Of a stretch of DNA of 15,612 nt, positions 1 through 15,612 are shown piece after piece. The translations under genes and the position numbers were made by a program. A model generated the notes under the pieces. The model was not told the origin of the DNA. It searched no databases and worked only from the letters and a program-made list of their open reading frames with translations. The stretch is from positions 1 through 15,612 of the forward strand of contig CAMZDU010000002.1 of NCBI GenBank assembly GCA_947305445.1, written 5' to 3'. Source of the DNA: an uncultured Selenomonadales bacterium (GTDB taxonomy: Bacteria; Bacillota; Negativicutes; Selenomonadales; Selenomonadaceae). The number at the start of each line of letters is the position of its first letter. Within the stretch, counting starts at the first letter, position 1.

Positions 1-1
1 C

Positions 2-532
2 ATGCAGTACAAGTGCAAGCTGACCGTCATTGACAAAAAAGTTTTCGGCGACTTGCAGGAAAAATACCTTGCCGATCCGAAATCGGGCGTGTGTCCGTTC
101 TACGAAGTCGGCACGGAATATATTTTCGAGCGTTACGGCGACGAGGACACTTTCTGGACGCAAGGCAAAGGTGCGCATTGCTCCGAGGCTTGGGACTGCT
201 TCAGCCGCTATGTTTATACGGCTCTGCAGGGCGGCTCAATAATGCGCGGCTGGACGAACGATGAGCATATGATGATTGCCTGTTGCAATGACGGCACGCG
301 CCCCGTGATTTTCAAAATCGAGCGGCTCGATTACAAAGTCGTTTACGTCGACGCGGACGAAACTGCTCAGAAAAAAATTGTCGACGCGCTGAAAAATCTT
401 GACGGCGTGACGAACGCGGTCTATCGTGCCGACAAAAATTTTCTGGAAGTTTTCATGGACAGGAATCGCGAAGTTGCCGACGACAAAATTATTTCGGCGG
501 CCGGCGACGTTAAAATCATTCGCATTGATTAG
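2..532 (+). CDS. TIGR04076-like Cys-containing protein with C-terminal HMA-like fold
   Basis: The 176-residue product has two parts. Residues 1-108 resemble the small uncharacterised TIGR04076 family: a beta-strand start (MQYKCKLTVI), a CPFYEVG motif at C31, CSEAWD at C60, a GG-containing segment at 77-78, and ACCNDGTRPVIFKIE at 93-107. The conserved cysteines suggest metal or redox chemistry, but the family function is not established. Residues about 111-175 look like a beta-alpha-beta-beta-alpha-beta ferredoxin-like fold of the heavy-metal-associated type, without the CxxC metal motif. The ATG at base 2 fits the family N-terminus, but its ribosome binding site lies outside the window, so an earlier start cannot be excluded. 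The stop codon overlaps the ribosome binding site of rsmB, so the two are co-transcribed. Family assignment is from motif recognition only. Confidence 0.75.
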   Translation: MQYKCKLTVIDKKVFGDLQEKYLADPKSGVCPFYEVGTEYIFERYGDEDTFWTQGKGAHCSEAWDCFSRYVYTALQGGSIMRGWTNDEHMMIACCNDGTRPVIFKIERLDYKVVYVDADETAQKKIVDALKNLDGVTNAVYRADKNFLEVFMDRNREVADDKIISAAGDVKIIRID

Positions 533-536
533 GAGG
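531..536 (+). promoter_or_regulatory. RBS fixing the rsmB start
   Basis: AGGAGG overlaps the TAG stop of the upstream gene (530-532) and lies 6 nt before the TTG at 543. It decides the rsmB start over the in-frame upstream candidate at 426, which would overlap the preceding gene by about 100 bases. Confidence 0.85.
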
Positions 537-542
537 CTCGCC

Positions 543-1829
543 TTGGACAACGTGAGACTGGCGGCGACGAAAATTTTGTTCGACGTGGCGGCTAAAGGTG
601 CATGGGCGAACGTGGCATTGGCGCAGACGTTGCGGCAAGAAAAATTTTCCGACCTGGACAGAAAATTTTGCACGGAGCTGGTTTACGGCACGGTGAAGGC
701 CGGCGCGTCACTCGATTGGAAAATTTCCAAATACCTCAACCGTCCGCTCGCCAAAGTAGACGAAAAAATTTTAGCCGTCCTGCGCGTGGGCATGTATCAA
801 ATTTTTTTCCTCGACCGTGTGCCGAATTCTGCGGCGGTAAATGAATCGGTGGAGCTGTCGAAAAAATTTTGCGGACTGGGCGCGTCAAAGTTTGTCAACG
901 GCGTACTGCGCTCGGCCGTGCGCGACATGCATAAATCAGACTTTCCGACGGGCGACGACGTGCAATCGCTGGCGTTGCGAACTTTTCACCCCGCGTGGCT
1001 CGTACAGCTGTTCGCGGAAGAATTTGAACTCGACGCGACGAAACGACTGCTCGACTTCGACAACACCGATCCGCCGCTGTGCCTGCGCGTAAATTTTTTG
1101 CGAACGACGCGTGAAAAAATTTTGTCCGCGCTGAAAAATTTCGGACTACAAGCCGAGGAGTCGACACTCGCACCCGAAGGCGTCATTTGTCGCGGACACG
1201 GTGCGCTTGACAAATTCCAACCGTTGCGGGCGGGGCTGTGTCAAGTTCAAGACGAAAGCTCCATGACGGCGGCGCGGTTGCTCGCTCCCAAGCCCGACGA
1301 ATTCGTAATTGATTGTTGCGCGGCTCCGGGCGGCAAGTCGACGCATTTGGCGGAGCTGATGAAAAATCGCGGACGAATCGTCGCGGCAGACATTTACGAG
1401 ACGAAACTTGAGCACGTCGCGCAAAACGCGCAACGCCTCGGCATAAAAATTATCGAGCCGCTGTTGATTGACGCCCGCGAAATCGGCGACAAATTTTTTG
1501 AACAGGCCGACAAAATTTTAGTCGACGCGCCGTGTTCGGGTCTGGGCGTGTTGCGTCGGAAGGCGGATTTGCGTTGGCGAAAAAATTTCAACGAACTGCA
1601 GGAGTTGCCCGGGTTGCAGTCGGAAATTTTGGCGAGCGCGGCCAAAGCTCTGAAGCGCGGCGGAATTTTGCTTTACAGCACCTGCACAATCACACGTCGC
1701 GAAAACGAAGCGGTCGTTGAAAATTTTTTGTCGTCGCGCGAAGATTTTCGGCTAACGGAGATGCGAACACTCCTGCCGCACGAGACGAACACCGACGGAT
1801 TTTTCTTCGCGAAAATTATTCGGACATGA
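543..1829 (+). CDS. rsmB: 16S rRNA (cytosine-967-C5)-methyltransferase RsmB
   Basis: RsmB methylates C967 of 16S rRNA using S-adenosylmethionine. From the TTG start the product is 428 residues, almost the E. coli length of 429. Residues about 1-140 form a NusB-like RNA-binding domain. The Rossmann methyltransferase domain follows, with SAM-binding motif I DCCAAPGGKS at 257-266, motif IV DAPCSG at 328-333 (C331, the product-release cysteine in this family) and motif VI YSTCT with C381, the catalytic nucleophile. The C-terminus ends in GFFFAKI, typical of the family. It is the second gene of an operon with the TIGR04076-like gene and is followed by an intrinsic terminator. The gene is rich in AAAATTTT octamers: eight in 1.3 kb by hand count. 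Confidence 0.96.
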   Translation: MDNVRLAATKILFDVAAKGAWANVALAQTLRQEKFSDLDRKFCTELVYGTVKAGASLDWKISKYLNRPLAKVDEKILAVLRVGMYQIFFLDRVPNSAAVNESVELSKKFCGLGASKFVNGVLRSAVRDMHKSDFPTGDDVQSLALRTFHPAWLVQLFAEEFELDATKRLLDFDNTDPPLCLRVNFLRTTREKILSALKNFGLQAEESTLAPEGVICRGHGALDKFQPLRAGLCQVQDESSMTAARLLAPKPDEFVIDCCAAPGGKSTHLAELMKNRGRIVAADIYETKLEHVAQNAQRLGIKIIEPLLIDAREIGDKFFEQADKILVDAPCSGLGVLRRKADLRWRKNFNELQELPGLQSEILASAAKALKRGGILLYSTCTITRRENEAVVENFLSSREDFRLTEMRTLLPHETNTDGFFFAKIIRT

Positions 1830-1836
1830 AAAATTT

Positions 1837-1864
1837 TTCCGACAAGACGTCGGAATTTTTTTTT
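1837..1864 (+). terminator. Intrinsic terminator after rsmB
   Basis: A 7-bp stem (TTCCGAC 1837-1843 with GTCGGAA 1849-1855) and 5-nt loop are followed at once by nine T residues (1856-1864). It begins 7 nt after the rsmB stop and separates that operon from topB. Confidence 0.88.
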
Positions 1865-1881
1865 GTTCGGGGAAGGCGAGG

Positions 1882-1910
1882 TTGTCTGTTGCGGAAAAAT
1901 TTTTTATAAT
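1882..1910 (+). promoter_or_regulatory. topB promoter (sigma-A type)
   Basis: TTGTCT (1882-1887) and a perfect TATAAT (1905-1910) are separated by 17 bp. The expected transcription start near 1917 coincides with the ribosome binding site GAGGTGA (1917-1923), so the 5' leader would be only about 13 nt. An AAAATTTT octamer fills the spacer just upstream of the -10 box. Confidence 0.75.
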
Positions 1911-1929
1911 CGGCGCGAGGTGAATTTTG

Positions 1930-4182
1930 GTGAGACTTTACATAGCCGAGAAGCCGTCGATGGCGCGGGAACTGGCGTCGTGCCTGAAAAATCCCCAACG
2001 CGGCAGAGGCTTTATAAAAACTGACGGCGGCGTTGTGACCTGGCTCGTCGGTCACGTGTTGCAACAGGTTGAGCCGGACGCTTACGACCCGAAATATAAA
2101 TTTTGGCGTGCGGAGGATTTGCCGATTGTTCCCGAACATTGGAAATTGCAAGTCAATCCTTCGACCGCCGAGCAGTTCCAAATCGTCAAGTCGCTGATAA
2201 GTCGTGCGGATGAGATTATTCACGCCGGCGACCCCGACCGCGAAGGTCAACTGCTCGTCGACGAGGTGCTTGACTTCGTAGGCAACAAAAAGCCTGTCAA
2301 AAGAATTTTGCTCAACGCCTTGGACGAGACGAGCATTCGCCGCGCCAATGCCGACTTGCGCGACAACGCCGAATTCTTCAACCTGAAACAATCCGCGCTG
2401 GCTCGCTCGCGTGCCGACTGGCTCATCGGCATGAATCTTTCGCGGGCTTACACGCTGTCGGCTCGCCGTCACGGTCACGACGGATTGATTTTACCGATTG
2501 GCCGCGTGAAGACGCCGACGCTTGCGCTGGTCGTGCGCCGAGAACGCGAGATAAAAAATTTTAATCCCTTCGACTTCTTCACGATTCGTGCGACATTCGA
2601 GCACGCCAACGGACTTTTCTCCGCGCAATTCAAGCCGTCAAAAAAGATGCTGGACTTGTCTGCTTTCGACGGCGAGGGACGACTCGTCGACAAAAATTTT
2701 GCTGAACAGCTCGCAAAAAAATTTTCTGCCGCGCCGTTTGACGGAAAAATTTCTTCGTACAAGACGACCGAAAAAAAAGAGTGGCAACCGTTGCCGTTCT
2801 CGCTGTCGACGTTGCAAGTGACCGCCGGCAAAGCTTTCGGTTATTCGCCGCAACAAGTACTCGACGCCGCGCAAAGTCTCTACGAAAAAAAATTGACGAC
2901 TTATCCGCGCTCCGACTGCGAATATTTGCCGACAAACCAGTTTAAAGACGCGCCGATTATTTTAAAAAATCTCGCCGCTTTGAGTGACGAACGGTTGCAT
3001 AAATTATCTGCGAATGCTTCGGCCGCGATTAAAAGCCGCGCTTGGAACGACAAAAAAATTTCCGCGCACCATGCGATTATTCCAACGCGCAAGCCGTTAA
3101 ACACGCAACTGACCGTCGTCGAGTTAAACGTCTACATGCTTATTGCGAAAAACTACGCCGTGCAATTTTATCCACAACACGTTTACGACGAGACCGTTGT
3201 CGCCGTCAAGTACAAGGACGAAACTTTCACGGCTCGCGGCAAAGTCGTCAAGAAACTCGGCTGGCGGGAATTTTATACCGCGCCGAAGTCTAAAGCCGAC
3301 GACGAGAGCGATACTTTTTTGCCGCAGATGAAGGAAGGCGACGACGTTCAATACAAGTCCGGCGACCTCAAGAAAAGTGTCACGAAGCCGCCCGTCAGAT
3401 TCACTTCGTCAACTCTGGTGCAGGGCATGAAGGACATTCACAAGTACGTAAAAAATCCCGACGCACGCAAACAGCTTAAGGACGTTTACGGCATCGGCAC
3501 CGAGGCGACGCGGGCGGCTATAATCGAAGATTTGATTCAGCGGAAATTTTTGCGCGTCGTCAAAAAAAATCTTTATCCGACCGAGCAAGCGTATCTGCTG
3601 ATTGATGCGTTGCCCGATGAAATGACTTATCCCGACGCGACCGCCATTTGGGAGGATAAACTTCACTCTATGAGCGAAGGCGACGGCACGCTTGAAGATT
3701 TTTTGGCGGGGCAGGTAAAATTCACGAGCGAGCTTGTCGAGGCGGCGACCACCGCAAAATTCGCCGACGCCGAAGATATTTTTAAGTGTCCGAACTGCGG
3801 CTCCGCGCTCGTCAAACGCAACGGCAACTACTGCGAGTTTTGGGGCTGTACAAATTATCCCGACTGCAAGGCGGCCTTCGACGACGACAACGGCAAGCCA
3901 GATCTTGACGGCAAAGCTCGTTCCGCTCGGCTGATTAAAGAAGGTGCGCCGACTTGTCCGAACTGCGGCTCTGCGCTCGTCAAACGCAACGGCAAGAACG
4001 GCGAGTTCTGGGGTTGCTCGAATTATCCGAGATGTCGCACGACTTTTAATGACAAGGACGGCAAGCCCGACTTCGACGGCAAAAAATTTCTCCGCGCTCC
4101 GACTGTTGAGGTTCCAGCCAATTTTAATTTTGCTGACTTCGAGCCGATAATCTCTTCCGCTGACTTCGACCCATCACGATAA
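1930..4182 (+). CDS. topB: DNA topoisomerase III (type IA) with tandem C-terminal zinc modules
   Basis: This type IA topoisomerase cuts one DNA strand through a 5'-phosphotyrosyl link and decatenates or relaxes DNA. The chosen GTG start gives 750 residues beginning MRLYIAEKPSMA, matching the family and lying 6 nt after GAGGTGA; a TTG one codon earlier is less well spaced. The Toprim domain has E7 and the metal-binding triad DPDRE at 101-105. The active-site tyrosine is Y325 in LTTYPRSD. The C-terminus carries two Cys4 zinc modules (C620/C623/C640/C646 and C676/C679/C696/C702) linked by acidic GKPDxDGK spacers. These are near-copies at the DNA level. The gene has its own promoter, and no hairpin terminator was found after it. 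AAAATTTT octamers are sparse (three in 2.25 kb). Confidence 0.95.
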   Translation: MRLYIAEKPSMARELASCLKNPQRGRGFIKTDGGVVTWLVGHVLQQVEPDAYDPKYKFWRAEDLPIVPEHWKLQVNPSTAEQFQIVKSLISRADEIIHAGDPDREGQLLVDEVLDFVGNKKPVKRILLNALDETSIRRANADLRDNAEFFNLKQSALARSRADWLIGMNLSRAYTLSARRHGHDGLILPIGRVKTPTLALVVRREREIKNFNPFDFFTIRATFEHANGLFSAQFKPSKKMLDLSAFDGEGRLVDKNFAEQLAKKFSAAPFDGKISSYKTTEKKEWQPLPFSLSTLQVTAGKAFGYSPQQVLDAAQSLYEKKLTTYPRSDCEYLPTNQFKDAPIILKNLAALSDERLHKLSANASAAIKSRAWNDKKISAHHAIIPTRKPLNTQLTVVELNVYMLIAKNYAVQFYPQHVYDETVVAVKYKDETFTARGKVVKKLGWREFYTAPKSKADDESDTFLPQMKEGDDVQYKSGDLKKSVTKPPVRFTSSTLVQGMKDIHKYVKNPDARKQLKDVYGIGTEATRAAIIEDLIQRKFLRVVKKNLYPTEQAYLLIDALPDEMTYPDATAIWEDKLHSMSEGDGTLEDFLAGQVKFTSELVEAATTAKFADAEDIFKCPNCGSALVKRNGNYCEFWGCTNYPDCKAAFDDDNGKPDLDGKARSARLIKEGAPTCPNCGSALVKRNGKNGEFWGCSNYPRCRTTFNDKDGKPDFDGKKFLRAPTVEVPANFNFADFEPIISSADFDPSR
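3787..3995 (+). repeat. Tandem 168-bp duplication encoding the TopB zinc modules
   Basis: Bases 3787-3827 and 3955-3995 match at 40 of 41 positions, encoding CPNCGSALVKRNG twice. Similarity continues at the same 168-base (56-codon) offset through the GEFWGC/NYP part and the GGCAAGCC spacer near 3892 and 4060. The synonymous positions are nearly unchanged, which points to recent duplication or gene conversion within topB. Confidence 0.85.
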
Positions 4183-4311
4183 CATTTAAGCGGCGAAATC
4201 TCGATGATTCAGAAAGCTCACGTCTCTTTAAAAAATTTTTTCATGACAATCGCTTCTGCTTCTTTCGTTGAAAAATTTTTCGGCATGCACGGCAAAGTTC
4301 TTGCGCGTCAA

Positions 4312-4340
4312 TCGACAAGCAACGACCGCTGTGCTATAAT
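4312..4340 (+). promoter_or_regulatory. alaS promoter (sigma-A type)
   Basis: TCGACA (4312-4317) and a perfect TATAAT (4335-4340) are 17 bp apart. The expected start near 4347 gives a leader of about 25 nt before the TTG at 4372. That is too short for a T-box, so no tRNA-sensing leader is present on this transcript. Between the topB stop and this promoter (4183-4311) I see only AAAATTTT-type palindromes, including GAAAAATTTTTC at 4270-4281. Confidence 0.75.
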
Positions 4341-4371
4341 TCGCGGCGAAAATTTTTTGGAGGTTGATATT

Positions 4372-6993
4372 TTGAAATACATGACAGGCAAAGAAGCGGC
4401 TACGGCGTTTCTGAAATTTTTCGAGAGCAAAGGACATCTCGTCATGCCGAGCTTTTCGTTGATACCCGAAAACGACCCGACGCTGTTGATGATTGGCGCG
4501 GGTATGGCTCCGCTTAAACCGTTCTTCACGGGCAAGCTTAAGCCGCCGTGCCCGCGTGTGACGACAAATCAGCGGTGCGTGCGCACCGGCGACATTGAAA
4601 ACGTCGGACGCACTGCCCGACATCATACGGCGTTTATGATGCTGGGAAATTTTTCTTTCGGCGACTACTTCAAAGCGGAGGCAATTCCGTGGGCGTGGGA
4701 ATTTTTGACGGAAGTCTGCGAACTGCCGCGTGAAAAACTTTGGGTGTCAATCTATCCGAACGACGACGAGGCCGAGCAAATTTGGCTCAAGCAACCCGGA
4801 CTCAATCCCGAACACATAATCCGCCTTGATGACAATTTCTGGGAAATCGGTCCCGGTCCGTGCGGTCCCGACAGCGAAATTTATATCGACCTGGGCGAGG
4901 AGCGCGGTTGCGGAAAAGAAACTTGCGCTCCCGGTTGCGACTGCGACAGATTTTTGGAAATTTGGAATTTGGTTTTCACGCAGTTTGACAAAACCGAAGA
5001 TGGCGAGTACAAACCGCTTGAGCATAAAAATATCGACACGGGTTGCGGGCTGGAGCGTCTGGCTTCCGTCCTGCAACAAAAGAACTCCAACTTCGAGACC
5101 GACCTGCTCTTTCCGATAATCGAATACGTCGAACAAATCAGCGGGCTGAAATTCGGCGACGACGCCAAAAAAGATATTTCCATGAAAGTTATCGCCGACC
5201 ATGCGCGGTCAATGGCGTTCATGATTATGGATAAGATTTTGCCGTCGAACGAAGGCCGCGGCTACGTCCTGCGCAGAATTTTGCGGCGGGCGATTCGTCA
5301 TGGGCGCATGCTCGGTATCCGCGACGCATTCCTTGAAGGCGCGATTGGCGTCGTCGCGAAAATTTATGACGGCTTCGCTGACTTCGAGGAACTTGCCAAA
5401 AACGTCGGCTACATCAAAAAAGTCGTGCGGCTTGAGGAAGATCGTTTCGCCGCGACGCTCGCGCAAGGCATGGAAGTTTTGACGCGGGAGATCGACGCCG
5501 CCAAAGCTTCGGGCAAATCCGAACTCGACGGCGAAATTTGTTTCAAGCTGTACGACACGTTCGGCTTCCCGTTCGAGCTGACTGAGGAAATTTTGGTGGA
5601 AAACAACCTTGCGCCCGACAAGGCAGGCTTCGATTCGGCGATGGAGGCTCAGCGTCAACGCGCCCGCGCCGCTCGTGCCGCAAATGAACGCCTTGACGTT
5701 CCCGACCTGCTTAACGTCGACACCGAACACCTCACGCGTGACGAGACTTGCACGTCGTCAAAAGTTTTTGCAATTTGGAAGGACGGCAAACTTGTCGATG
5801 AACTCACCGACGGCGACGCGGCCGGAATTATTTTGGAGTGCACGCCCTTTTACGCGGAGGGCGGCGGACAAGTCGGCGACGAGGGCTGGATTTTCGGCGA
5901 ACTCGGCAAGATTAAAATTTCCAACGCGAAAAAACTTCCCGACGGCACGATTTACCACGAGGCTTACGTCGAGGAAGGTCAGCTTAAAGTCGGCGACGCC
6001 GTTGAAATTCGCATCGACCGCGACAAAAAACTTTCCTCCGCCCGCAACCACACCGCGACGCATTTGCTCCAGGCCGCGCTGAAAAAAGTTGTTGGCAACC
6101 AAGTCAATCAGGCCGGCTCGCTCGTCACGCCGGAGAGATTGCGCTTCGACTTCTCGAACTTTGAACCTGTCACCGCTCAACAGCTCGCCGACGTCGAAGA
6201 ACTCGTCAACGAAGAAATTTTGAAGTCGGCTGACGTCACGATTCGACAAATGCCGATTGACGAGGCCAAAAAGCTCGGTGCGATGGCTCTGTTCGGCGAA
6301 AAGTACGGCGACATTGTGCGCGTCGTCAGCGTCGAAGACTTCAGCTGCGAACTTTGCGGCGGCTCCCACGTCAAGAACGTCGGACAAATCGGTCGCTTCA
6401 AAATCGTCAGCGAAGGCGGCATTGCGGCGGGCGTGCGTCGTATCGAGGCTGTCACAGGTCGTGCGGCGATTAAGGACGCCACTCATCAAGCCGAGCTGTT
6501 GAATCAAACCGCCGCGCTGTTAAAAGTTCGTCCCGAAGATTTGCCCGCGCAAGTCGAAAAAATTTTGGCGGACGATAAAACCATGCGCAAACAGCTCGAA
6601 GAAGTTCAAAAACTCAAAGAACGTGCCGAGGCTCAAAAACTTTTGGTCGGCGGCGAAGAAGTCGGCGGGCTGAAATATCTTAAAGGCGTCGTGCAGACGA
6701 AAACTCCCGACGAGTTGCGCGGCATGACCGATTTCATCAGCGACAAGCTCGACGGCGGCGTTGTAGTGCTGGCGGCCGTTAACGACGGAAAAGTTTCGCT
6801 GGTCGTCAAAGCCGACAAAAAAGCTGTGGCGGCCGGCGTGCACGCGGGCAAAATCGTCAAGGAGATTTCCAAGCTCGTTGGCGGCGGCGGCGGCGGTCGT
6901 CCCGACATGGCTCAAGCCGGCGGCAAAAATCCCGAAGGCATTCCGCAAATGTTTGACGCGGCAAAAAAAATTCTGACTGACTTAACGAAATAA
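4372..6993 (+). CDS. alaS: Alanine--tRNA ligase
   Basis: This class II synthetase charges tRNA-Ala and removes mischarged Ser and Gly. The TTG start lies 8 nt after GGAGG (4359-4363) and gives 873 residues, close to the usual length. An in-frame upstream extension from 4204 is rejected because it would cross the promoter. Visible features are the class II catalytic core (NDPTLLMIGAGM; TNQRCVRTGDIENVG; GLERLASVLQ), the editing domain with zinc ligands H560, H564, C662 and H666 (HTATH and CELCGGSH), and the C-terminal DHHA1 region with its Gly-rich loop GGGGGGRPDMAQAGG. It contains only one AAAATTTT octamer in 2.6 kb, far below its neighbours. It is monocistronic: promoter upstream, terminator downstream. 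Confidence 0.97.
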   Translation: MKYMTGKEAATAFLKFFESKGHLVMPSFSLIPENDPTLLMIGAGMAPLKPFFTGKLKPPCPRVTTNQRCVRTGDIENVGRTARHHTAFMMLGNFSFGDYFKAEAIPWAWEFLTEVCELPREKLWVSIYPNDDEAEQIWLKQPGLNPEHIIRLDDNFWEIGPGPCGPDSEIYIDLGEERGCGKETCAPGCDCDRFLEIWNLVFTQFDKTEDGEYKPLEHKNIDTGCGLERLASVLQQKNSNFETDLLFPIIEYVEQISGLKFGDDAKKDISMKVIADHARSMAFMIMDKILPSNEGRGYVLRRILRRAIRHGRMLGIRDAFLEGAIGVVAKIYDGFADFEELAKNVGYIKKVVRLEEDRFAATLAQGMEVLTREIDAAKASGKSELDGEICFKLYDTFGFPFELTEEILVENNLAPDKAGFDSAMEAQRQRARAARAANERLDVPDLLNVDTEHLTRDETCTSSKVFAIWKDGKLVDELTDGDAAGIILECTPFYAEGGGQVGDEGWIFGELGKIKISNAKKLPDGTIYHEAYVEEGQLKVGDAVEIRIDRDKKLSSARNHTATHLLQAALKKVVGNQVNQAGSLVTPERLRFDFSNFEPVTAQQLADVEELVNEEILKSADVTIRQMPIDEAKKLGAMALFGEKYGDIVRVVSVEDFSCELCGGSHVKNVGQIGRFKIVSEGGIAAGVRRIEAVTGRAAIKDATHQAELLNQTAALLKVRPEDLPAQVEKILADDKTMRKQLEEVQKLKERAEAQKLLVGGEEVGGLKYLKGVVQTKTPDELRGMTDFISDKLDGGVVVLAAVNDGKVSLVVKADKKAVAAGVHAGKIVKEISKLVGGGGGGRPDMAQAGGKNPEGIPQMFDAAKKILTDLTK

Positions 6994-7092
6994 TCCGTTG
7001 TGAGTGTAAGTTGCGCTATCCGTAGCTCAGCGGAGATACACCGACCATATCCGCGCGCTCTCTCTTGTATCAAAAATTTTTTTCCGAGTACG

Positions 7093-7120: not shown

Positions 7121-7161
7121 GCAAGCCGATATAAAATTTCTTTTCAAGGAGGCGATGATCA

Positions 7162-8666: not shown

Positions 8667-9430
8667 GCGATGAACTTTTGCGCGTGGAAGATTTAGTTGT
8701 CGCTTACGGCGGAGAAAAAATTTTGCGCGGCGTGAATTTTTCCGTAAAGCGCGGAGAAATTTTGATTATCGCGGGCGAAAGCGGCTCCGGCAAGTCGACT
8801 GTCCTCAAGGCGATTGACGGATTGCTCGGCAAGGGCGGCGCGATTGTCGGCGGAAAAATTTTTTTCGACGGACGCGACATCACGCACCTTTCAGACGACG
8901 AACGGCGCAAAATTTCCGGCGAGGCAATCGGAATTATTTTTCAGAATGCCGGCGCAAGTTTCTGTCCGATACGCACAATCGGCGACCAAATTTTTGAGAG
9001 CGTCCGCGCTCACCGCGACCAAGACAAAAAATTTTTCCGCGAGCGGGCGGTCGAACTCATGCAAAAAATAAATTTAGACCCCGCGACGCTTGACGAGTAC
9101 CCGTTTAGACTTTCGGGCGGCATGGCGCAACGTGCGGGCATTTTGGCGGCGACAATCCTCGAACCGAAACTTTTGCTTGCCGACGAGCCGACGAGCGCAC
9201 TCGACGTGGTCACGCAAGTCGGCGTCGTCAAGGAGCTGTTGAAACTTCGCGAGCGCGAAAAAATTTCAATCGTCCTGGTCACACACGACTTGAAGATTGC
9301 CAAACGCATGGCGGACAAAATTTTAATCTTGCGGCGCGGCGAGCCGGTCGAATTGGGCACGCGGGAGCAAATCTTCAACGAACCGCGACAACCTTATACA
9401 CGCGAGTTGATTGGAGCGGCGAACTTATGA
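8663..9430 (+). CDS. ABC transporter ATP-binding protein, DppD/NikD type
   Basis: This 255-residue ATPase should energise the importer that used the upstream binding protein. The ATG at 8663 overlaps the preceding stop (ATGA), implying translational coupling; the in-frame extension from 8546 lies inside the binding-protein gene. Motifs are complete: Walker A GESGSGKST at 38-46, Q-loop FQNAGASFCP, signature LSGGMAQRAG, Walker B LLLADEPTSALD and switch histidine LVTHDL. The C-terminal GEPVELGTREQIFNEPRQPYT stretch is typical of the Opp/Nik ATPase subfamily. An alanine replaces the usual proline after FQN. The partner permease genes are absent from this locus. Confidence 0.9.
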   Translation: MSDELLRVEDLVVAYGGEKILRGVNFSVKRGEILIIAGESGSGKSTVLKAIDGLLGKGGAIVGGKIFFDGRDITHLSDDERRKISGEAIGIIFQNAGASFCPIRTIGDQIFESVRAHRDQDKKFFRERAVELMQKINLDPATLDEYPFRLSGGMAQRAGILAATILEPKLLLADEPTSALDVVTQVGVVKELLKLREREKISIVLVTHDLKIAKRMADKILILRRGEPVELGTREQIFNEPRQPYTRELIGAANL

Positions 9431-10120
9431 TTTTGGAAGTTCAACACGTCAAAAAATTTTTCGGCAAACGGCTTGTCCTCGACGACATAAATTTTTCCGT
9501 AGGCGCGGGCGAATGTCTGTGCATTGTCGGCTTGAGCGGCGGCGGCAAATCCACGCTGGCGAAAATTATTGCGCGGCTGATTCCCTGCGACGACGGAAAA
9601 ATTTTTCTCTGCGGCGAAGACATCACTCATGCGGTTGGAAACGAATTTTATCGCGAAATGCAGATGATTTTTTCAAAATCCGGAAGAATCTTTCGACCCG
9701 CGACGCACTTTGGGCGCGAGCATTGCCGAACCGATAAAAAATTTTCTCGGCAACAACGACCGCGAACTTGTGGCGAATCTTTTGACGGAAGTCGGGTTGC
9801 CAACGAATTACGCCGAACGTTATCCGCGTGAAGTCAGCGGCGGTGAATGTCAGCGGGCGGCTGTTGCGCGGGCAATTTCCGTCGCGCCAAAACTTTTAAT
9901 CTGCGACGAGGCAACAAGCGCGCTCGACGTGACGATTCAAGCTCAAGTCGTCGCGCTGATAAAAAAACTCTGCACGAAAAAAAATATTGCCTGCCTTTTC
10001 ATCACGCACGACTTGGCACTTTTGCCGAAGCTGGCCGACCGCGTGCTCGTCTTGGAAAATTCGCGGCTAAAAACTTTGGACGAATCAAATTTCAGGGAGG
10101 TAATCGCATGGAGCAGTTAA
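9427..10120 (+). pseudogene. ABC transporter ATP-binding protein, DppF/NikE type, +1 frameshift in a T run
   Basis: This is the second Opp/Nik-type ATPase. It starts at the ATG at 9427, which overlaps the previous stop as ATGA. Walker A (GLSGGGKST) is intact, but after MQMIF the frame is lost at the six-T run 9668-9673. With five T residues the sequence would read IFQNPEESFDPRRTLGAS, an exact family Q-loop, and continue in the downstream frame with signature VSGGECQRAA, Walker B LLICDEATSALD and switch FITHDL to the TAA at 10118-10120. The repaired product would be 230 residues. As written, translation stops at 9831 after 134 residues. The cause could be a sequencing error, phase variation, slippage or recent decay. 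The rest of the sequence shows no sign of drift. Confidence 0.87.
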
Positions 10121-10809
10121 ATCGGCGCATCGAAAATTATTGGGACGAACGCAGCGAACACTTCAGCCGGACGCGGCGACTTGAACTTGACGGCGTTGAC
10201 GGTGCCGCCTGGCGAAAAATCTTCAAAAAAAATTTGCCAGCCGGCAAGCTGACAATTTTGGATGTGGGCACGGGCGCAGGATTTTTCGCGGCGATTTTGT
10301 CGAAGCTCGGACACAAAGTTATAGGCGTGGACATGTCGACCAAAATGCTTGGCGAGGCCGATAAAAATTTGCGCGAGCTGAAACTCTCCGCCGACTTCCG
10401 CAAGATGAATGCGCAAGCTCTCGACTTCGACGACGAAACTTTTGACGCGGTTGTAACCAGAAATTTGACGTGGACTTTGCCCGACGTGAAGGCCGCTTAC
10501 CGCGAGTGGCGACGCGTGCTCAAGCCCGGCGGCGTGCTGATGAATTTCGATTCCGACTACGGCGAAAAAAATTTTTCCGACGACGTTTGCAACGAAGTTG
10601 AAGTCACGGACGCCATGCTCGTTGAGTGCGACGCGATTAAAAATTCTCTGACGATAAGTACTCGTCGCCGCCCGATGTGGGACGCGGGATTTTTGGAAGG
10701 ACTAAATTTTTCCGTGCGCCTGGACGAAGACATTTCTGACACCGTGCACAAAGACAATCGTTGCGTTTACGATTCGGTGCCGCTGTTCGCCATTCATGCG
10801 ACAAAATAA
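10108..10809 (+). CDS. Class I SAM-dependent methyltransferase linked to the ABC transporter
   Basis: This 233-residue methyltransferase has motif I ILDVGTGAGFFA (D52 onward), motif II VIGVDMS, the acidic segment MNAQALDFDDETFDAV, motif IV-like VTRNLTWTLPD and the post-motif VLKPGG. The ATG at 10108 follows GGGAGG (10095-10100) by 7 nt and overlaps the upstream ATPase gene by 13 nt; an extension back to 9847 would run inside that gene. The coupling suggests a role tied to the transporter, for example modifying a metal-binding small molecule or imported substrate, but that is inference. The substrate cannot be read from the sequence. A 7-bp AT-rich inverted repeat (10800-10817) is centred on the stop codon. 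Confidence 0.85.
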   Translation: MEQLNRRIENYWDERSEHFSRTRRLELDGVDGAAWRKIFKKNLPAGKLTILDVGTGAGFFAAILSKLGHKVIGVDMSTKMLGEADKNLRELKLSADFRKMNAQALDFDDETFDAVVTRNLTWTLPDVKAAYREWRRVLKPGGVLMNFDSDYGEKNFSDDVCNEVEVTDAMLVECDAIKNSLTISTRRRPMWDAGFLEGLNFSVRLDEDISDTVHKDNRCVYDSVPLFAIHATK

Positions 10810-10829
10810 TTTTTGTCAGTCAGCATGAC
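10800..10829. terminator. Weak hairpins between convergent genes
   Basis: GACAAAA (10800-10806) pairs with TTTTGTC (10811-10817) around the methyltransferase stop, and GTCA (10819-10822) pairs with TGAC (10826-10829) just after. The 32-base gap separates two convergent genes, so a bidirectional terminator is expected here. The stems are short or AT-rich and no long T run follows. Confidence 0.3.
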
Positions 10830-10841
10830 GATTTTGTAAAA

Positions 10842-12485
10842 TCATTGACGATTACCGTTGACGAAAATTTTACAGCGAACGACATCATAACCGTCGAGGT
10901 GTTCGCTCTCGTAAATCACGCGAAAATCTCTGTCACGGGAAAGTTGATTGAAGATAAACGGATCATTGCTCGTGATGATTATGTGCGTGAAGTCGTAGCG
11001 GCCGAAAAAATCTTTGTAGAAAATTTTTCCGTTCTTGAAGTCGATATACTCCTCAAAAATATTTTTACGACCGTTGTTGACGTCGAGAAAAACTTCCGAG
11101 CGTGAGTCGATGTAGTAACGAATTCCGAATTCGCCGGCCAATCCGCCGACGCTTTGATCGACATAGAGCAAAATATTTTCCGGCCGCTCGCTACGCAATA
11201 AAAATTCTATTGCGGGCGTGTAAATTTGCGGCGGATTTTTTTTTGTCGTGTCGAGCGTCGTCGAGTAAATTCCGCAGACAATCACGGCCGTGATCGTCAG
11301 TGACAAAATTTTTCGCGGAAGGAGCTTCGGGTGCAAAATTCGCCCGTCAACACGCAATATCAGCAAATTGTACAGCACGAATGCCATCGCCGCAAAAAAG
11401 ATAATTTCAATCGGCGCGGAGAGTTTGTCTAGTCCGTCCTGCATGAGGAGCGTTATCGACGCCGTGTTGACAAACAGCACCGTCATTAACATGAGAATCA
11501 TCATCGCGTTATTTTCAGGGCGTCCGCCGTCCGGGGCGGAAAAAATTTTTTCGAGCACGAAATTTCTGCACGCATAAACAATCGGCAACGTTGCCAGCAA
11601 ATGAAACAGCAAAAAGTTTCGAGAATGCATTATCGACAAAAAAATTATTCCGCCGCTCAAGAAGACGTATCGCCACGGAGTTTTGACTTTTGCCGACGAA
11701 AAAATTATTGCCGCTTCCGTGAGGTAGAAAACTTTGCCGCGGAAGTCATGTGCCGACGGCGTGAACATCTCCGCCACGCGTGAATTTATCAGCTCGACGC
11801 CGTAGGAGCGCAAAACGTAAGTCATTGCGTCGACGCCGTAAGGATTAATCAGCCCGCAAACGACAATGGCCGCCATTGCCGCGAGCAAAAATTTCGCGTG
11901 ACGAACATTGCGCACGAACAGGAACGGCAGGCATATTGCAAGCGACATCATCCAGAGTGCCGCGTGAAAATTTATCATCGCGAGCGACACGAACGGTAAC
12001 GGCAACAAAAATTTTGTCTTGCCCGTGCGCGTGAATTTTTCTAAAAAGAAAACTTCGCCGACAAGTAGCGGCGTCGAAAAAATTTGCGGGCGCGGAACGA
12101 TCATTGACGAGATTGCCATACCGACGAAGAAGGCCATTACCGCCGACAAAATTTTATTCCCGCCGCTGACCGTCAAGCACAGCCGCCAATAAATCACGAC
12201 CGCCGCCGCGCCGCAAAAATAATCGAGCACCGCCAATCCGTTGACGCCGAAATTTTTGTACGCCTCCCAAAAAAAAATTCCGCTTAACCACTGCTGGGCG
12301 ACGAGTTGAAGATTTTCGTGGATTGTAAACGGATCGACGTGCGGGAAGCCGTGCTCCAGAATATATCGTCCCAAATTCATTGCAAAGCGCGTGTCCGCCT
12401 CCTCAATAAATGGAAACGTCGTCTGCCAATAAGCCACGCTCGCCGTTATGAAAATTATTTGTACAAGCGGAAAAATTTTATTCAT
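10842..12485 (-). CDS. GT-C-like polytopic membrane protein with C-terminal soluble domain
   Basis: The 547-residue product has roughly ten or more hydrophobic segments and a soluble C-terminus from about residue 440. The N-terminal loop contains DTRFAMNLGRYILEHGFPHV, then DPFT and QQWLSGIFFWEAY, the pattern of bacterial GT-C-fold glycosyltransferase-like membrane proteins (acidic residue in the first extracytoplasmic loop, then DPF and WL motifs). The C-terminal part (IRYYIDSRSEVF, then a segment ending VIYESEHLDGYDVVRCKI) matches the soluble domain common in that group. The ATG at 12485 overlaps the upstream stop by 8 nt, implying coupling; an in-frame start at 12566 would lie far inside the upstream gene. 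The upstream Shine-Dalgarno is weak (GGGTG). Donor and acceptor are unknown. Confidence 0.72.
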   Translation of the reverse strand: MNKIFPLVQIIFITASVAYWQTTFPFIEEADTRFAMNLGRYILEHGFPHVDPFTIHENLQLVAQQWLSGIFFWEAYKNFGVNGLAVLDYFCGAAAVVIYWRLCLTVSGGNKILSAVMAFFVGMAISSMIVPRPQIFSTPLLVGEVFFLEKFTRTGKTKFLLPLPFVSLAMINFHAALWMMSLAICLPFLFVRNVRHAKFLLAAMAAIVVCGLINPYGVDAMTYVLRSYGVELINSRVAEMFTPSAHDFRGKVFYLTEAAIIFSSAKVKTPWRYVFLSGGIIFLSIMHSRNFLLFHLLATLPIVYACRNFVLEKIFSAPDGGRPENNAMMILMLMTVLFVNTASITLLMQDGLDKLSAPIEIIFFAAMAFVLYNLLILRVDGRILHPKLLPRKILSLTITAVIVCGIYSTTLDTTKKNPPQIYTPAIEFLLRSERPENILLYVDQSVGGLAGEFGIRYYIDSRSEVFLDVNNGRKNIFEEYIDFKNGKIFYKDFFGRYDFTHIIITSNDPFIFNQLSRDRDFRVIYESEHLDGYDVVRCKIFVNGNRQ

Positions 12486-13719
12486 TATCAACACCCAACT
12501 GCAGACAGCGAAAATTTTTTGTCGCGTCGAATACTCCGCGAAGTTCAGAAAAATTTTTGTCGGCACGAAAGTCGAACGAGTACTTCGGAATTTTTACGCA
12601 CACGCCGCCGCGTACGTCCGCCGCCGCAATAAGCCCGACCGTAGCAAGTTCATCGGCCGCAAACTTCACAAAATCATCGTCCGTCAAATTTAGCAATTCG
12701 TCGTCGGCACTGCAGAAGTAATCCAGGCCGAGCCACGTTAAATTTTTCTCTGCGGAGACGAGTTGCGGCGACAGGTTGTTGAAAATTTTTACGCGGGCAA
12801 GTTTAACTGACGGCTCCCGAATGTAAATGACTTGCGCTTGCGTCTCCGGCAAAATTTTTTCGGCGAGAAGCCCGACGGTTATGCGGGCGCGGTACGGCAA
12901 ATTTTTGAGCAGTTCACGCGGTTCGGCTGGCAAAATTTTTTCGTCGAACATGTCGGCCAATTCGTCAAGCGGCATACTCGACAAGAAGAGGTCGGCCGGA
13001 AAAGTCAGCGTGCCCGCCGCCGTTGCCGCCGTCACGGATTTAATGATTTTATTCGCGTCTGCACGAAAATTTTTGACTTCAACCCCGTTGAGGACTTCGC
13101 CGCCGAGCCGTTTGATTTCGTCGGCAAGTTTTTCGCACAGACGACCGCCGCCGCATTTAGGACAGAAAAATTTTTCCGGCAACGTGAATTTGTCGAACAG
13201 TTGATTGCCGAGTTTCGCGTTAAGTTGTGCGGGCGAGCGTCCGAAAATTTTCGTCGTGCAGTCGCCGAAAAAAATTTCGTAGAATTTTTTTCCGAAACGA
13301 TTAATCAGCACGTCTTCGAGCGTCCGTTCTTCGCGCCGAAAAAATTTTGTGCGCAGGAGACTTGCGCCGATTGACACGGCCTCAAGCAACCCGAAACTCA
13401 TCAGCGTCGCACGGTTCGGCGTCAACGGCAACGGAAAAATTTTCCCGCGACAGAGGACAGCCGACGCGCCTTGAAGTTCCGATAAATCGTCGGGCAACAA
13501 TTCGCGCCACAGTGACAAATTTTTCTCGTCCGTCAAAAATATTTTTCGTTCGTCGACTTCCAACAGGTTGCCGCAAAAATTTGTCGTGCGCGAGCTTCCG
13601 CCAACAAAATTTTCCCGCTCCAAGACAATCGGTCGAATGTCGGTGCGTTTCAACAAAATGTACGCCGCCGTCAGCCCCATAAGCCCCGCGCCGACGATTA
13701 TCGCGTGTTGTTTATGCAA
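12478..13719 (-). CDS. NAD(P)/FAD-dependent oxidoreductase, amine-oxidase-like
   Basis: The 413-residue product begins with an FAD-binding Rossmann motif (IIVGAGLMGLTAAY, GAGLMG at 10-15) followed by ERENFVGGSSRT, typical of the amine oxidase / protoporphyrinogen oxidase / UDP-galactopyranose-mutase-like superfamily. The central RGKIFPLPL and FGRSPAQLNA segments fit the subgroup often found near glycosyltransferases. The TTG at 13719 follows GGGAGG (minus strand, 13733-13728) by 8 nt and overlaps the upstream stop by 8 nt. The C-terminus ends at NFRCLQLGVDNE, where relatives usually continue with a GRxGxxRYxxxD flavin-contacting segment. No continuation is seen in the other frames. It carries eleven AAAATTTT octamers, the densest gene in the window. 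The substrate is unknown. Confidence 0.78.
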   Translation of the reverse strand: MHKQHAIIVGAGLMGLTAAYILLKRTDIRPIVLERENFVGGSSRTTNFCGNLLEVDERKIFLTDEKNLSLWRELLPDDLSELQGASAVLCRGKIFPLPLTPNRATLMSFGLLEAVSIGASLLRTKFFRREERTLEDVLINRFGKKFYEIFFGDCTTKIFGRSPAQLNAKLGNQLFDKFTLPEKFFCPKCGGGRLCEKLADEIKRLGGEVLNGVEVKNFRADANKIIKSVTAATAAGTLTFPADLFLSSMPLDELADMFDEKILPAEPRELLKNLPYRARITVGLLAEKILPETQAQVIYIREPSVKLARVKIFNNLSPQLVSAEKNLTWLGLDYFCSADDELLNLTDDDFVKFAADELATVGLIAAADVRGGVCVKIPKYSFDFRADKNFSELRGVFDATKNFRCLQLGVDNE

Positions 13720-14350
13720 GAGACTGTCCTCCCGTCGGCAGGTTGAGCAAAATATTTTGCTGATTAATTTGCGCGACGCCGAATTTTATTTCGTCGCCCG
13801 CATGGCAACTAAAATCCTGTCGCGGCTCGTTTAAAAGTTCGCCCGTCAAAATATTTTCGTCAACGGAGACGCAACGCACCCATAACAGCTCCGGAGTGTG
13901 TTGCGCATCGAGGAAGTAGACAACCACGTCATCGGGATAATTTGGGTGGCGGAAGGCGTCGAGCGTCTTAATCAGTCGCGTCTGCTCACGAGCGGCGTCG
14001 GCGGACGTTTGGTCGTTAATCATCTGAATTCTGTCGCGGAAAGCCGTCGAATACTCCGCAGTCAAAATTTTCAGTTCGGCCTCCTCCATTTGCCCGCGCT
14101 TGAGCTTGACGGATTTTTTGTAGCTAGCGGGAAAAATTTTTACGCGGTCGCCGTCGCACTGAGCACCCGCCAAAATTTCAAAAACAAAAGTCTCGCCGTC
14201 AATGTGCGCGTAAGTCAAAAAGCCGTCAATTTTTTCGTCGGGCGGGAAGTCAAACACGTCGCGCAGGTTCACGGCGTCAACGACGTTTTGACCGGTCAGC
14301 AGACAAATTTGCCGATACACCTTGCGGAAAAAAATTTTTGCAACGTTCAA
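13712..14350 (-). CDS. Uncharacterised protein, possible DUF2314-like C-terminus
   Basis: I do not recognise this gene with confidence. The best start is the TTG at 14350 (MNVAKIFFRKVYRQ), 9 nt after GGAG (14363-14360), giving 212 residues; an ATG at 14359 directly abuts that Shine-Dalgarno, and a GTG at 14383 lacks one. The protein appears soluble, with no signal peptide. The C-terminal part (VVVYFLD, PELLWVRCVSVDE, ILTGELLNEP, AGDEIKFGVAQI) resembles the DUF2314-type pattern of a Trp-Val strand, a G.L.NEP turn and a GD strand. A charged stretch at roughly 85-130 may be helical. It is the first gene of the minus-strand operon and overlaps the oxidoreductase gene by 8 nt. Function unknown. 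Confidence 0.6.
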   Translation of the reverse strand: MNVAKIFFRKVYRQICLLTGQNVVDAVNLRDVFDFPPDEKIDGFLTYAHIDGETFVFEILAGAQCDGDRVKIFPASYKKSVKLKRGQMEEAELKILTAEYSTAFRDRIQMINDQTSADAAREQTRLIKTLDAFRHPNYPDDVVVYFLDAQHTPELLWVRCVSVDENILTGELLNEPRQDFSCHAGDEIKFGVAQINQQNILLNLPTGGQSLA

Positions 14351-14359
14351 AGCTGTCAT

Positions 14360-14719
14360 CTCCAAAAAATTTTTAGCGCGCACATTTTACCACACGAGCG
14401 CAACAAAAACCGTTCCCATGTTGAAAAAATTTTTGCCGTCTGATAAACTTCGCTTATCAATTTGAAACGGTCGCCCCTTCCTGCGAAGGAGAAAATTCGG
14501 AGTTGTCGACAGAGCGGCACGCGACAAAAATTTTGGTTGCCAAAGTTGCTCCGCTTGCACACGTGCAAAAGCCGGTTCACAGTAGCGACGCCGTAAATTT
14601 TTCGACATCTCCAATAAAATTTTATTCACCTGTTGTGAGTGCGCAAAACAATTCCTAATTATTTTGTCTCCGCACAACAAGTTTGTTCGGAAAATTTTTT
14701 TCGAGGAGTGACGAAGATT
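14360..14719. other. Divergent intergenic region with hairpins and five AAAATTTT octamers
   Basis: No gene is supported here. It separates the minus-strand operon from tsaE. It holds the extended -10 promoter, AAAATTTT octamers near 14365, 14426, 14526, 14616 and 14692, and two small inverted repeats: TGATAA/TTATCA (14441-14446 with 14454-14459) and CCTTC/GAAGG (14476-14480 with 14485-14489, loop CTGC). A tsaE promoter must lie here, but I could not pick a convincing one. TTGTGA (14633-14638) with a poor -10 17 bp downstream is the best guess. Confidence 0.6.
14384..14392 (-). promoter_or_regulatory. Extended -10 promoter of the minus-strand operon
   Basis: Read on the minus strand, TGGTAAAAT (14392-14384) is an extended -10 element with five of six matches to TATAAT. 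The expected start near 14377 leaves a leader of about 27 nt before the TTG at 14350. I see no good -35 hexamer, which extended -10 promoters often lack. Confidence 0.45.
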
Positions 14720-15202
14720 TTGTTTACCCACATAACGCAGTCCCCATACGGGACGGTAAAATTGGCGGCTAAAGTTGCGCAACGCGTGCGCGAAGGTACG
14801 GTCATTTGTCTGGAAGGCGGCTTGGGCGCGGGCAAAACTCTTTTCGTACAGAGTATGGCGCGGACTCTCGGCGTGCAGGGCGAAGTCACCAGCCCGACGT
14901 TCAACCTGATGAGCGTTTACGAGGGTTTTTGCCCGATTGTACACTTCGACCTGTATCGCCTGCACAACGAGGCCGAACTCGAAGACATCGGCTTCTACGA
15001 GTACATCGATTTTCCCGACGGGATTGTTTTTATCGAGTGGGCTGAAAAATTTCCGCAGGCTTTGCCCGAAGATTACGTCGTCATCAAAATCGAGCGTATC
15101 AAGGATTCCAAAAACATGCGGCGGATAACTTTTTCCTGCGTCGGCGAAGAGCATGCGGATTTTATCGCCGAGCTTGAAGACTTCGTGGCAAAGGACGACT
15201 GA
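14720..15202 (+). CDS. tsaE: tRNA t6A biosynthesis ATPase TsaE
   Basis: TsaE is the ATPase that resets the TsaB-TsaD complex during synthesis of N6-threonylcarbamoyladenosine at A37 of ANN-decoding tRNAs. The 160-residue product from the TTG at 14720 has a P-loop GGLGAGKT at 33-40 (K39, T40), the SPTFNLMSVYEG segment, HFDLYRL, ELEDIGFYEY and VFIEWAEKFP, all typical of the family. GAGGAG (14703-14708) lies 11 nt before the TTG; a GTG at 14708 overlaps that site and is less likely. tsaB follows after a 13-nt gap. It has no AAAATTTT octamer. Confidence 0.93.
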   Translation: MFTHITQSPYGTVKLAAKVAQRVREGTVICLEGGLGAGKTLFVQSMARTLGVQGEVTSPTFNLMSVYEGFCPIVHFDLYRLHNEAELEDIGFYEYIDFPDGIVFIEWAEKFPQALPEDYVVIKIERIKDSKNMRRITFSCVGEEHADFIAELEDFVAKDD

Positions 15203-15203
15203 C

Positions 15204-15208
15204 GGAGG
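15204..15208 (+). promoter_or_regulatory. RBS fixing the tsaB start
   Basis: GGAGG begins two bases after the tsaE stop and lies 7 nt before the TTG at 15216, which sets the tsaB start. Confidence 0.8.
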
Positions 15209-15215
15209 CGCGAAC

Positions 15216-15612
15216 TTGTACATTTTGGGAATTGAAACTGCGACGCGGGCGGCAAGTGTCGCAGTAATTCTTGACGGAAAAATTTTGGCGGAGACCGTGC
15301 GCGAATCCCCGCAAAGTTTTTCGGAGACACTCATGCCGCAGGTCGAAGAGGTCATCAAAGTTTCCGGCGCGTTCCAAAAACTCGACGCGGTGGCAGTTTC
15401 AATCGGGCCGGGTTCGTTTACGGGACTGCGAATCGGATTGGCCACGGCCAAGGCTCTGGCTTACGCGTGGCGAACAAAAATTATCGGCGTGCCGACACTT
15501 GACGCACTGGCACGCAATTTTCCGTCCGCAAAAGTCTTGCCGCTAATCGACGCGCAAAAAAATCGGGCTTATTGCCAACTGTTCAAAAATTTTTCGGCGC
15601 AGTCGGAGCTTG
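15216..15612 (+). CDS. tsaB: tRNA t6A biosynthesis protein TsaB (3' end outside the window)
   Basis: TsaB is the ASKHA-fold partner that forms the threonylcarbamoyl transferase complex with TsaD and TsaE. The frame from the TTG at 15216 stays open to the window edge, giving 132 codons. It starts MYILGIETATRAASVAVI (the phosphate-1-like ASKHA strand), then carries the hallmark GPGSFTGLR at 64-72, IGLATAKALAYA and PTLDALARN. The last visible residues are in the PLIDAQKNRAYCQLF strand. About 100 residues are missing. It is co-transcribed with tsaE; family operons often continue with rimI and tsaD, which would lie beyond this window. Confidence 0.93.
   Translation, partial: MYILGIETATRAASVAVILDGKILAETVRESPQSFSETLMPQVEEVIKVSGAFQKLDAVAVSIGPGSFTGLRIGLATAKALAYAWRTKIIGVPTLDALARNFPSAKVLPLIDAQKNRAYCQLFKNFSAQSEL

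Follow-up and report, generated by a model that had tools for sequence, protein, structure and literature searches.

A one-turn A-then-T DNA box iterated across the genomes of the uncultured rumen genus Quinella

The palindromic octamer AAAATTTT recurs throughout a 15,612-base stretch of DNA (hereafter, the window) that constitutes the entire contig C2 of a metagenome-assembled genome (MAG), G000, which is 68.7% complete. We found that this octamer is the core of a longer A-then-T box about one helical turn in length, which is iterated genome-wide and has left an imprint on proteins. Judging by its AlaS, which is at most 92% identical over its full length (93% in a partial match) to proteins from MAGs named Quinella sp., uncultured Selenomonadales or Selenomonadaceae, the window is DNA of a metagenome-assembled Quinella. 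We favor, with a probability of about 0.4, a reading in which a nucleoid-type protein reads the narrow minor groove of the boxes, and the sites are kept by selection or a selection-like drive. Quinella is an uncultured, large-celled rumen genus (PMC9585023, which also describes how its cells can be physically enriched); the main text of that paper contains no words beginning with palindrom or nucleoid. None of the titles and abstract openings returned by a literature search, whose coverage excluded most subscription journals, reports this Quinella element.

Results

Excess of the octamer

The original prediction put the number of AAAATTTT copies in the window at about 57. There are exactly 57, as compared with expectations of 0.18 from base composition and 16.1 from a third-order Markov model, which already contains the motif's own tetramers. 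A4T4 is the most frequent 8-mer of the window, and the second-ranking 8-bp palindrome is present in 5 copies. A codon- and amino-acid-preserving shuffle had been named beforehand as the test that could refute the excess. The excess survived: the coding DNA of the window contains 51 copies versus 16.3 ± 3.2 after shuffling, and the 20 longest contigs of G000 (238 kb) contain 314 versus 84.9 ± 7.5 after a synonymous shuffle. The shuffle thus rules out codon or amino-acid use as the source of the excess. The excess is genome-wide, with 2,063 copies of AAAATTTT and 76 of TTTTAAAA in the whole of G000. The density of AAAATTTT in the window is about 2.7 times the mean of that genome.

Some details of the prediction had to be corrected. 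Many copies were said to extend to a longer word, but GAAAAATTTTTC occurs in the window just 4 times. The densest region, described as intergenic with about 11 copies in 0.8 kb, is an 800-bp segment from 12,472 that contains 9 copies and lies in the coding DNA of two adjoining genes. The related claim that copies are densest between genes does not apply to this peak. There is also a part-intergenic cluster, in which six AAAATTTT copies start between 14,331 and 14,691 and four of them lie outside the gene list. In larger samples, intergenic DNA is the denser: when we counted islands, defined as at least three A followed by at least three T with a total length of at least 8 bp, the intergenic and coding densities were 4.80 and 2.78 per kb in G039, and 3.42 and 0.88 per kb in G046. 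Coding DNA accounts for 51 of the 57 copies in the window when open reading frames (ORFs) are called, and for 48 under a stricter gene list.

Shape of the unit

Maximal A/T runs in G000 are depleted at lengths of 4–7 bp and in excess at 9–14 bp. The excess at 8–10 bp consists chiefly of A-then-T runs (at 10 bp, 123 versus 16.7 expected); T-then-A runs, as well as pure A or T runs of at least 6 bp, are at or below expectation. We measured the enrichment of A-then-T runs over an order-2 Markov model in G000, G039, and G046 (200–238 kb each). It rose from 1.0–1.3-fold at 7 bp to 2.2–2.6-fold at 8 bp, 5.0–5.6-fold at 9 bp, 8.8–10.6-fold at 10 bp, and 9.6–11.2-fold at 11 bp, followed by 5.2–7.7-fold at 12 bp and 6.5-, 0.7-, and 0-fold, respectively, at 13 bp. 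Pooled Quinella DNA (1.57 Mb) contained 537 copies of A5T5, versus 51.4 expected from a pooled model. The A/T junction is central, with A6T6 making up 28 of the 65 12-bp runs of A's then T's (pure runs counted). GC-rich shoulders extend to about 12 bp on either side of the junction, giving a frame about 24 bp wide, and 3 of the 641 centre-to-centre gaps in G000 are shorter than 16 bp.

Because the length optimum lies at 10–11 bp, A5T5 is in excess, and the junction is central, AAAATTTT is the shared core of a one-turn, dyad-symmetric A5T5 box, formed by an island of 8–12 bp. A-then-T islands that lack a TpA step are preferred, and mixed A/T runs are favored more weakly. TpA is disfavored rather than forbidden, since the excess A/T runs of 11–14 bp are mostly mixed.

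Spread across genomes

An order-wide count covered 189 genomes, 66 of the genus and 123 of other genera in the family, with densities based on rounded genome sizes. AAAATTTT outnumbered TTTTAAAA in all 66 genus genomes, by 2.1- to 279-fold (median, 9.2-fold). Its density there ranged from 116 to 2,168/Mb (median, 1,123/Mb) and reached at least 500/Mb in 57 genomes. None of the 123 genomes of other genera reached 500/Mb; their median density was 50/Mb and their median ratio 3.3, and the highest density, 400/Mb, belonged to a genome with a ratio of just 1.3. Seven of them combined a density above 100/Mb with a ratio of 3 or more (g34, at 208 and 253/Mb with ratios of 167 and 215; g43; two of g45; one g48; and one g49), indicating that a mild bias predates the genus. 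A 23.8-kb sample of g34 had a milder excess, at 6–9 bp. Among 39 genomes from other families of the class, the ratio was 0.6–1.8 in 37, 3.0 in G090 (count, 162), and 4.3 in G079 (count, 39). In an AlaS tree of 57 rows, all 20 rows labelled as enriched fell within a 32-row clade (SH-aLRT 98), the other 12 rows of which do not carry that label.

The box itself is similarly distributed. Under an order-2 Markov model, A-then-T runs of 8–11 bp were at least 1.5-fold in excess in 41 of the 45 genus genomes represented by 15 kb or more; the C1 stretches of G013, G025, G030, and G041, as well as G029:C1, read as N and contribute nothing. No such excess was found in 16 loci of Selenomonas, Mitsuokella, Megamonas, Anaerovibrio, Pectinatus, and uncultured kin. 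Around alaS in the Quinella sp. 1Q5 group (L010, L013, and L014), boxes are few and there is no protein imprint. We do not claim a secondary loss, because these data amount to a single locus and the density of boxes differs greatly from place to place even in box-rich genomes. Near alaS in L018, a Quinella-clade locus, runs of 6–7 bp number 55 versus 34.2 expected and runs of 8–11 bp 11 versus 11.4, perhaps reflecting a shifted length optimum.

Conservation of sites and imprint on proteins

Conservation of the sites in close relatives, proposed as a check in the original prediction, was confirmed: islands are found at matching codons in different species, and synonymous conservation within them is raised. 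Same-codon boxes are present in up to 25 of 30 species in rsmB and up to 21 of 33 in alaS, and one box in the TIGR04076 gene is present in 14 of 14. Codon retention was analyzed in 30 species for rsmB, and in 36 loci (31 for the comparison with TpA runs) for alaS; these species are related and not independent. Where the amino acid was conserved, rsmB codons were retained inside and outside boxes at 0.92 and 0.74 (AAA), 0.93 and 0.71 (AAT), 0.84 and 0.64 (ATT), and 0.80 and 0.66 (TTT). The corresponding values in alaS were 0.80 and 0.74, 0.94 and 0.69, 0.89 and 0.72, and 0.75 and 0.52. In rsmB, AAA retention was 0.92 (0.88–0.96) in islands versus 0.76 (0.62–0.82) in long A/T runs with TpA; the weaker retention of the latter argues against a generic A/T-context effect. 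Thus, sites in rsmB and alaS are kept by position beyond codon and protein constraint, although not for every codon type.

The tripeptides KIF, KNF, ENF, EKF, and KIL, which correspond to the box spelled in three frames, are over-represented in Quinella proteins. In G000, G039, and G046, respectively, KIF was enriched 5.8-, 7.7-, and 4.0-fold, and KNF 8.4-, 7.4-, and 6.0-fold, as compared with 0.65-fold and 1.97-fold in the comparison loci. The G000 sample contained 402 box-type tripeptides versus 93 expected. Because tripeptides of all three frames are enriched and the reversed ones are not (FNK, 0.1–0.44-fold), the force works at the DNA level and is strong enough to alter proteins. AAATTT occurs 1,812 times in 371 G039 genes, versus 690 after a within-gene shuffle. 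Even among 11 island-poor G039 genes, 10 exceed their own shuffle (e.g., PFOR, 6 versus 1.1; small numbers).

We also considered whether expressed genes avoid boxes. This was hinted at by the resemblance of island-poor G039 genes to well-expressed ones (glycogen phosphorylase, PFOR, and PGDH) and by ribosomal L2 loci, which contain 29 copies of AAAATTTT versus 101.9 at genome means, and 10 versus 10.7 ± 3.0 in coding DNA under a pooled shuffle. The idea was rejected: the pooled shuffle had taken in wrong-frame ORFs, and the island-poor genes mostly exceed their own shuffle, as noted above. The L2 and L4 ORFs, identified by eye, contain 0 and 3 copies versus 0.0 and 2.2 after the within-gene shuffle.

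Terminase loci

To represent foreign DNA, we used 26 loci with terminase matches from 16 of the 66 genomes, dropping four near-copies or fragments of G058 for the box and shuffle tests; random stretches from 11 of the same 16 species served as the control. The terminase loci contained 26 copies of AAAATTTT versus 82.7 at the means of their own genomes, a number that short phage contigs binned into the wrong genome might likewise lower. No excess of 8–11-bp boxes was found in them (29 versus 29.3 expected from the Markov model; control stretches, 240 versus 104.3), and the tripeptide excess was milder (1.6-fold versus 2.95-fold in the control). Since the terminase loci lack a box excess, the boxes belong mainly to long-resident DNA.

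These results bear on two alternatives. In the first, A-then-T runs are generated and protected by a neutral bias of mutation or repair that depends on sequence context, and there is neither reader nor function. Such a bias would account for a pressure that acts across so wide a range of genes, including the island-poor ones, and most strongly in intergenic DNA. However, pure and T-then-A runs are unfavored, in two of the three genomes the excess wanes beyond 12 bp, and islands occupy the same codons in many species with proteins changed to fit. The simple neutral bias listed in the original prediction is a poor fit to the unusual conservation of synonymous positions in islands and to the terminase loci without box excess, and we regard this explanation as unlikely.

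The second is molecular drive without chromosomal function, in which biased DNA uptake, recombination, or repair favors molecules with A5T5 boxes, much as happens with uptake sequences in Pasteurellaceae and Neisseriaceae. Such a drive would produce the density of about 1 per kb, the occurrence in all frames, the imprint on the proteome, and the terminase loci free of box enrichment. Candidate uptake components are also present: ComEC in 58 of 60 genomes and, in G039 (L235), an ORF taken for ComEA by eye only. The presence of ComEC, however, says little, because 10 of 14 unrelated control genomes match too. Moreover, the A5T5 motif is palindromic, graded, and A/T-only, and in many of these genomes the non-palindromic word TCTGCGCGG would suit an uptake signal better. 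Drive seems rather unlikely.

TCTGCGCGG is a second iterated word, and a candidate uptake or Chi-like signal. Its observed and expected counts are 63 and 3.1 in 200 kb of G046 (C1; L146, L211–L219), 67 and 10.6 in G039 (L201–L210, L228–L247), 27 and 3.5 in G000 (L101–L120), 131 and 13.1 in the first stretches of relatives, and 10 and 4.1 in the comparison loci. CTGCGCGG is nearly equal on both strands, and no regional strand skew was found in three contigs. It is absent from the samples taken of 8 of 45 genomes (G002–G004, G012, G027, G038, G051, and G052).

Placement and phasing

In pooled relatives, intergenic box density was 4.2, 4.4, and 3.9 per kb in convergent, divergent, and tandem gaps, respectively. 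This similarity speaks against a promoter or terminator role; a peak near gene ends and starts remains, with 9.4 and 7.8 per kb in the first and second 10 bp after stops and 2–6 per kb further out. On RNA-level selection, the strand data are mixed. In coding DNA, the shuffle is exceeded by non-palindromic variants in most of the orientations tested (two reach about 1.1 in G046), and the raw counts on the sense strand differ by up to 3.5-fold (AAAAAATT, 91; AATTTTTT, 26; G046).

A4T4-type tracts are bent and T4A4-type tracts are not, and bending offers a further explanation, in which helix-phased A-tracts curve the chromosome with no dedicated reader of single boxes. However, AAATTT pairs have no 10.5-bp phasing, and AA/TT spectral power at 10.4–10.6 bp is 0.65–0.94 in three Quinella genomes versus 1.37–1.41 in the 16 loci of relatives. 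Consequently, the phased curvature or positioning code raised in the original prediction is largely refuted at this scale, even though phased A-tracts accompany DNA-bridging nucleoid proteins in other prokaryotes, according to PMC3940949; we consider it most improbable. The lower power in Quinella looks as if isolated boxes had replaced ordinary A-tract periodicity.

Adenine methylases

The original prediction also raised a methylation- or repair-related motif. In a HIP1-like scheme, the box, through its AATT or AAATTT, would be the target of an adenine methylase and would be maintained by repair or some function linked to methylation. PMC4390886 relates HIP frequency to methylases in cyanobacteria, and PF01555 (N6_N4) was above cut-off in 54 of 60 genomes, with four matches in G000. 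However, neither this family nor PF02086 (D12; 30 of 60), the two tested, is genus-wide. PF01555 matches are of several kinds, and none was found in G011, G029, G041, or G053. G011 and G041 match neither family (other classes, such as Eco57I and type I enzymes, were not surveyed), yet are rich in AAAATTTT, with AAAATTTT and TTTTAAAA counts of 2,541 and 382, and 1,715 and 249, respectively. The length-graded optimum also lacks an exact core. On the other side, these MAGs are 71–82% complete, and an MmeI-type protein is present in G039. We consider the scheme very unlikely.

Discussion

A-then-T tracts have a narrow minor groove. In our preferred reading, an abundant, shape-reading protein would bind the boxes all over the chromosome, as a nucleoid or chromosome-organizing factor. 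Boxes would arise by mutation wherever protein constraint permits, and new ones would then persist through selection or a selection-like drive linked to that putative protein. In a more tentative, broader form, single A5T5 boxes of one turn, spaced a few hundred to a few thousand bp apart, would constitute a chromosome-wide code through which a putative minor-groove reader marks long-resident DNA, with proteins rewritten genus-wide. A site for a nucleoid-associated protein was among the roles originally suggested, and positional conservation supports it. The probability left beyond this reading and the four alternatives above belongs to causes we have not thought of.

Several results weigh against a nucleoid-type reader. 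The expanded family of AT-tract-binding proteins that the original prediction proposed to look for did not emerge: HU is no special candidate (51 of 60 genomes, 1–3 copies), AT-hook is above cut-off in 7 of 60, so that neither is genus-specific, and charge screens of sampled small ORFs yielded nothing convincing, the top matches of one looking mostly like wrong-frame ORFs. Slow drive or slow biased repair would leave sites just as conserved and recent arrivals just as lacking in boxes. The conservation data are non-independent owing to the relatedness of the species compared; in alaS, AAA retention in islands, 0.81 (0.76–0.91), is close to that in TpA runs, 0.79 (0.72–0.85), and several other intervals overlap; and conservation of the amino acid itself is often lower inside islands (rsmB AAT, 0.49 versus 0.77 outside). 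Terminase loci keep a weak AAAATTTT excess over the synonymous shuffle (19 versus 10.3 ± 2.8; control, 159 versus 80.0 ± 7.6). Box strength differs widely among species (over the density range given above) and along genomes, with G005, G024, G027, and G033 at 0.6–1.3-fold for 8–11 bp in the 20 kb sampled. A larger share of the 11–14-bp excess in G000 comes from mixed A/T runs. Finally, a nucleoid-type reader gives no account of why boxes are densest within 20–30 bp after stops and before starts, or why tandem gaps are richer in G039 (6.5 per kb) and G000 (5.8 per kb).

The original prediction compared the motif with HIP1 (GCGATCGC). The likeness holds in that the Quinella box is iterated genome-wide, between genes as well as within them, roughly once per kb, a density of HIP1 order, is not codon-driven, is genus-wide, and is conserved in position (rsmB and alaS). 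It fails for the fixed octamer, and methylation of the HIP1 kind finds no support in the two families tested. In PMC4390886, HIP1 and alternate cyanobacterial HIPs are likewise short palindromes at about 1 per kb, in coding and intergenic DNA, clade-specific and variable among species. HIP1, however, is an exact octamer, whereas the Quinella box, from a different phylum, is an A/T-only, length-graded family with an optimum of 10–11 bp and, in the two families tested, no genus-wide methylase. Because one exact palindromic octamer was tested for and a graded A-then-T family was found, we do not class the box as a HIP member; it is a further genome-wide iterated short element.

Known uptake sequences are non-palindromic and more exact, with a core of about 9–12 bp. 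The uptake signal sequences and DNA uptake sequences of Pasteurellaceae and Neisseriaceae resemble the box in density (about 1 per kb), occurrence in all frames, and protein imprint, and comEC is present in Quinella. The box differs in being palindromic, A/T-only, and degenerate, without a non-palindromic exact core; TCTGCGCGG looks more like an uptake or Chi-type signal. The phased A-tracts and 10–11-bp periodicity of prokaryotes, as described in PMC3940949, share with Quinella genome-wide A-tracts and a possible link to nucleoid proteins. In Quinella, by contrast, single, symmetric, one-turn boxes stand unphased in GC-rich frames, and A-tracts at multiples of about 10–11 bp were not found. 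Fis, according to PMC4784862, is a nucleoid protein that chooses sites by groove width; Quinella boxes may similarly be degenerate sites picked by groove width over strict sequence, but differ from Fis sites in number per genome, in their A-then-T core, and in their effect on proteins.

Genome-wide iterated short elements are few, and the reason for HIP1 is still open; Quinella adds a case in a distant phylum. Its physical signature (one helical turn, A-then-T, GC-rich frame) states what a reader would recognize, and boxes that are genus-wide and protein-changing point to some process that acts on DNA, or to a protein that reads it. A force of this kind, reshaping proteins throughout the genus, also matters when codon and amino-acid trends in Quinella are read as adaptation.

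Features of the window and other repeats

Table 1. Positions of AAAATTTT copies and islands along the window.
Feature	Position	Strand	Content
Whole window	1..15612		57 AAAATTTT; 85 islands: 27 of 8 bp, 19 of 9, 23 of 10, 10 of 11, 6 of 12
End of TIGR04076-family gene, rsmB, gap after rsmB	435..1903		AAAATTTT starts 435, 570, 641, 662, 765, 863, 1116, 1512, 1720, 1830, 1896
rsmB	522-1829	+	13 islands, 9.9/kb
topB to start of alaS	2555..4356		AAAATTTT starts 2555, 2693, 2718, 4232, 4272, 4349
End of alaS to solute-binding protein ORFs (named by eye)	6559..8131		AAAATTTT starts 6559, 7073, 7167, 8124; sparse
ABC ATPases, methyltransferase-like ORF (by eye), end of membrane-protein ORF	8717..10871		AAAATTTT starts 8717, 8855, 9028, 9317, 9453, 9598, 9738, 10568, 10864
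Membrane-protein-like ORF (about 10842-12503, no NCBIfam hit)	11020..12479	-	AAAATTTT starts 11020, 11305, 11542, 12008, 12148, 12472
Oxidoreductase-like gene, densest of the window	12478-13719	-	16 islands, 12.9/kb
Copies in oxidoreductase-like gene	12511..13613		AAAATTTT starts 12511, 12550, 12782, 12851, 12932, 13066, 13167, 13244, 13341, 13436, 13606
Hypothetical gene, gap after it, tsaE side	14064..15593		AAAATTTT starts 14064, 14133, 14331, 14366, 14426, 14527, 14616, 14691, 15279, 15586

Two genes of the window each look split over two frames, reflecting either a broken gene or an assembly indel: the solute-binding protein (ORFs 7162–7614 and 7506–8666) and the second ABC ATPase (9427–9831 and 9710–10120). 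The neighbors of rsmB vary among Quinella species (30 loci, about 1.5 kb on each side). The sole window gene that recurs beside it is the TIGR04076 gene, in 15 of the 30 loci including the window's; topB lies 3' of rsmB only in the window's own locus.

Other repeats were encountered in the same genomes. GGATCTGA is a local repeat, with 39 copies in one 20-kb stretch, L082 (G002:C1), versus 0–1 in the other stretches compared. Very frequent heptamer-type repeats (words CCCTTGTCCC and TAGGAGTTAG) are present in dozens of copies in G046:C1 and G039:C7 (200 and 359 kb, respectively).

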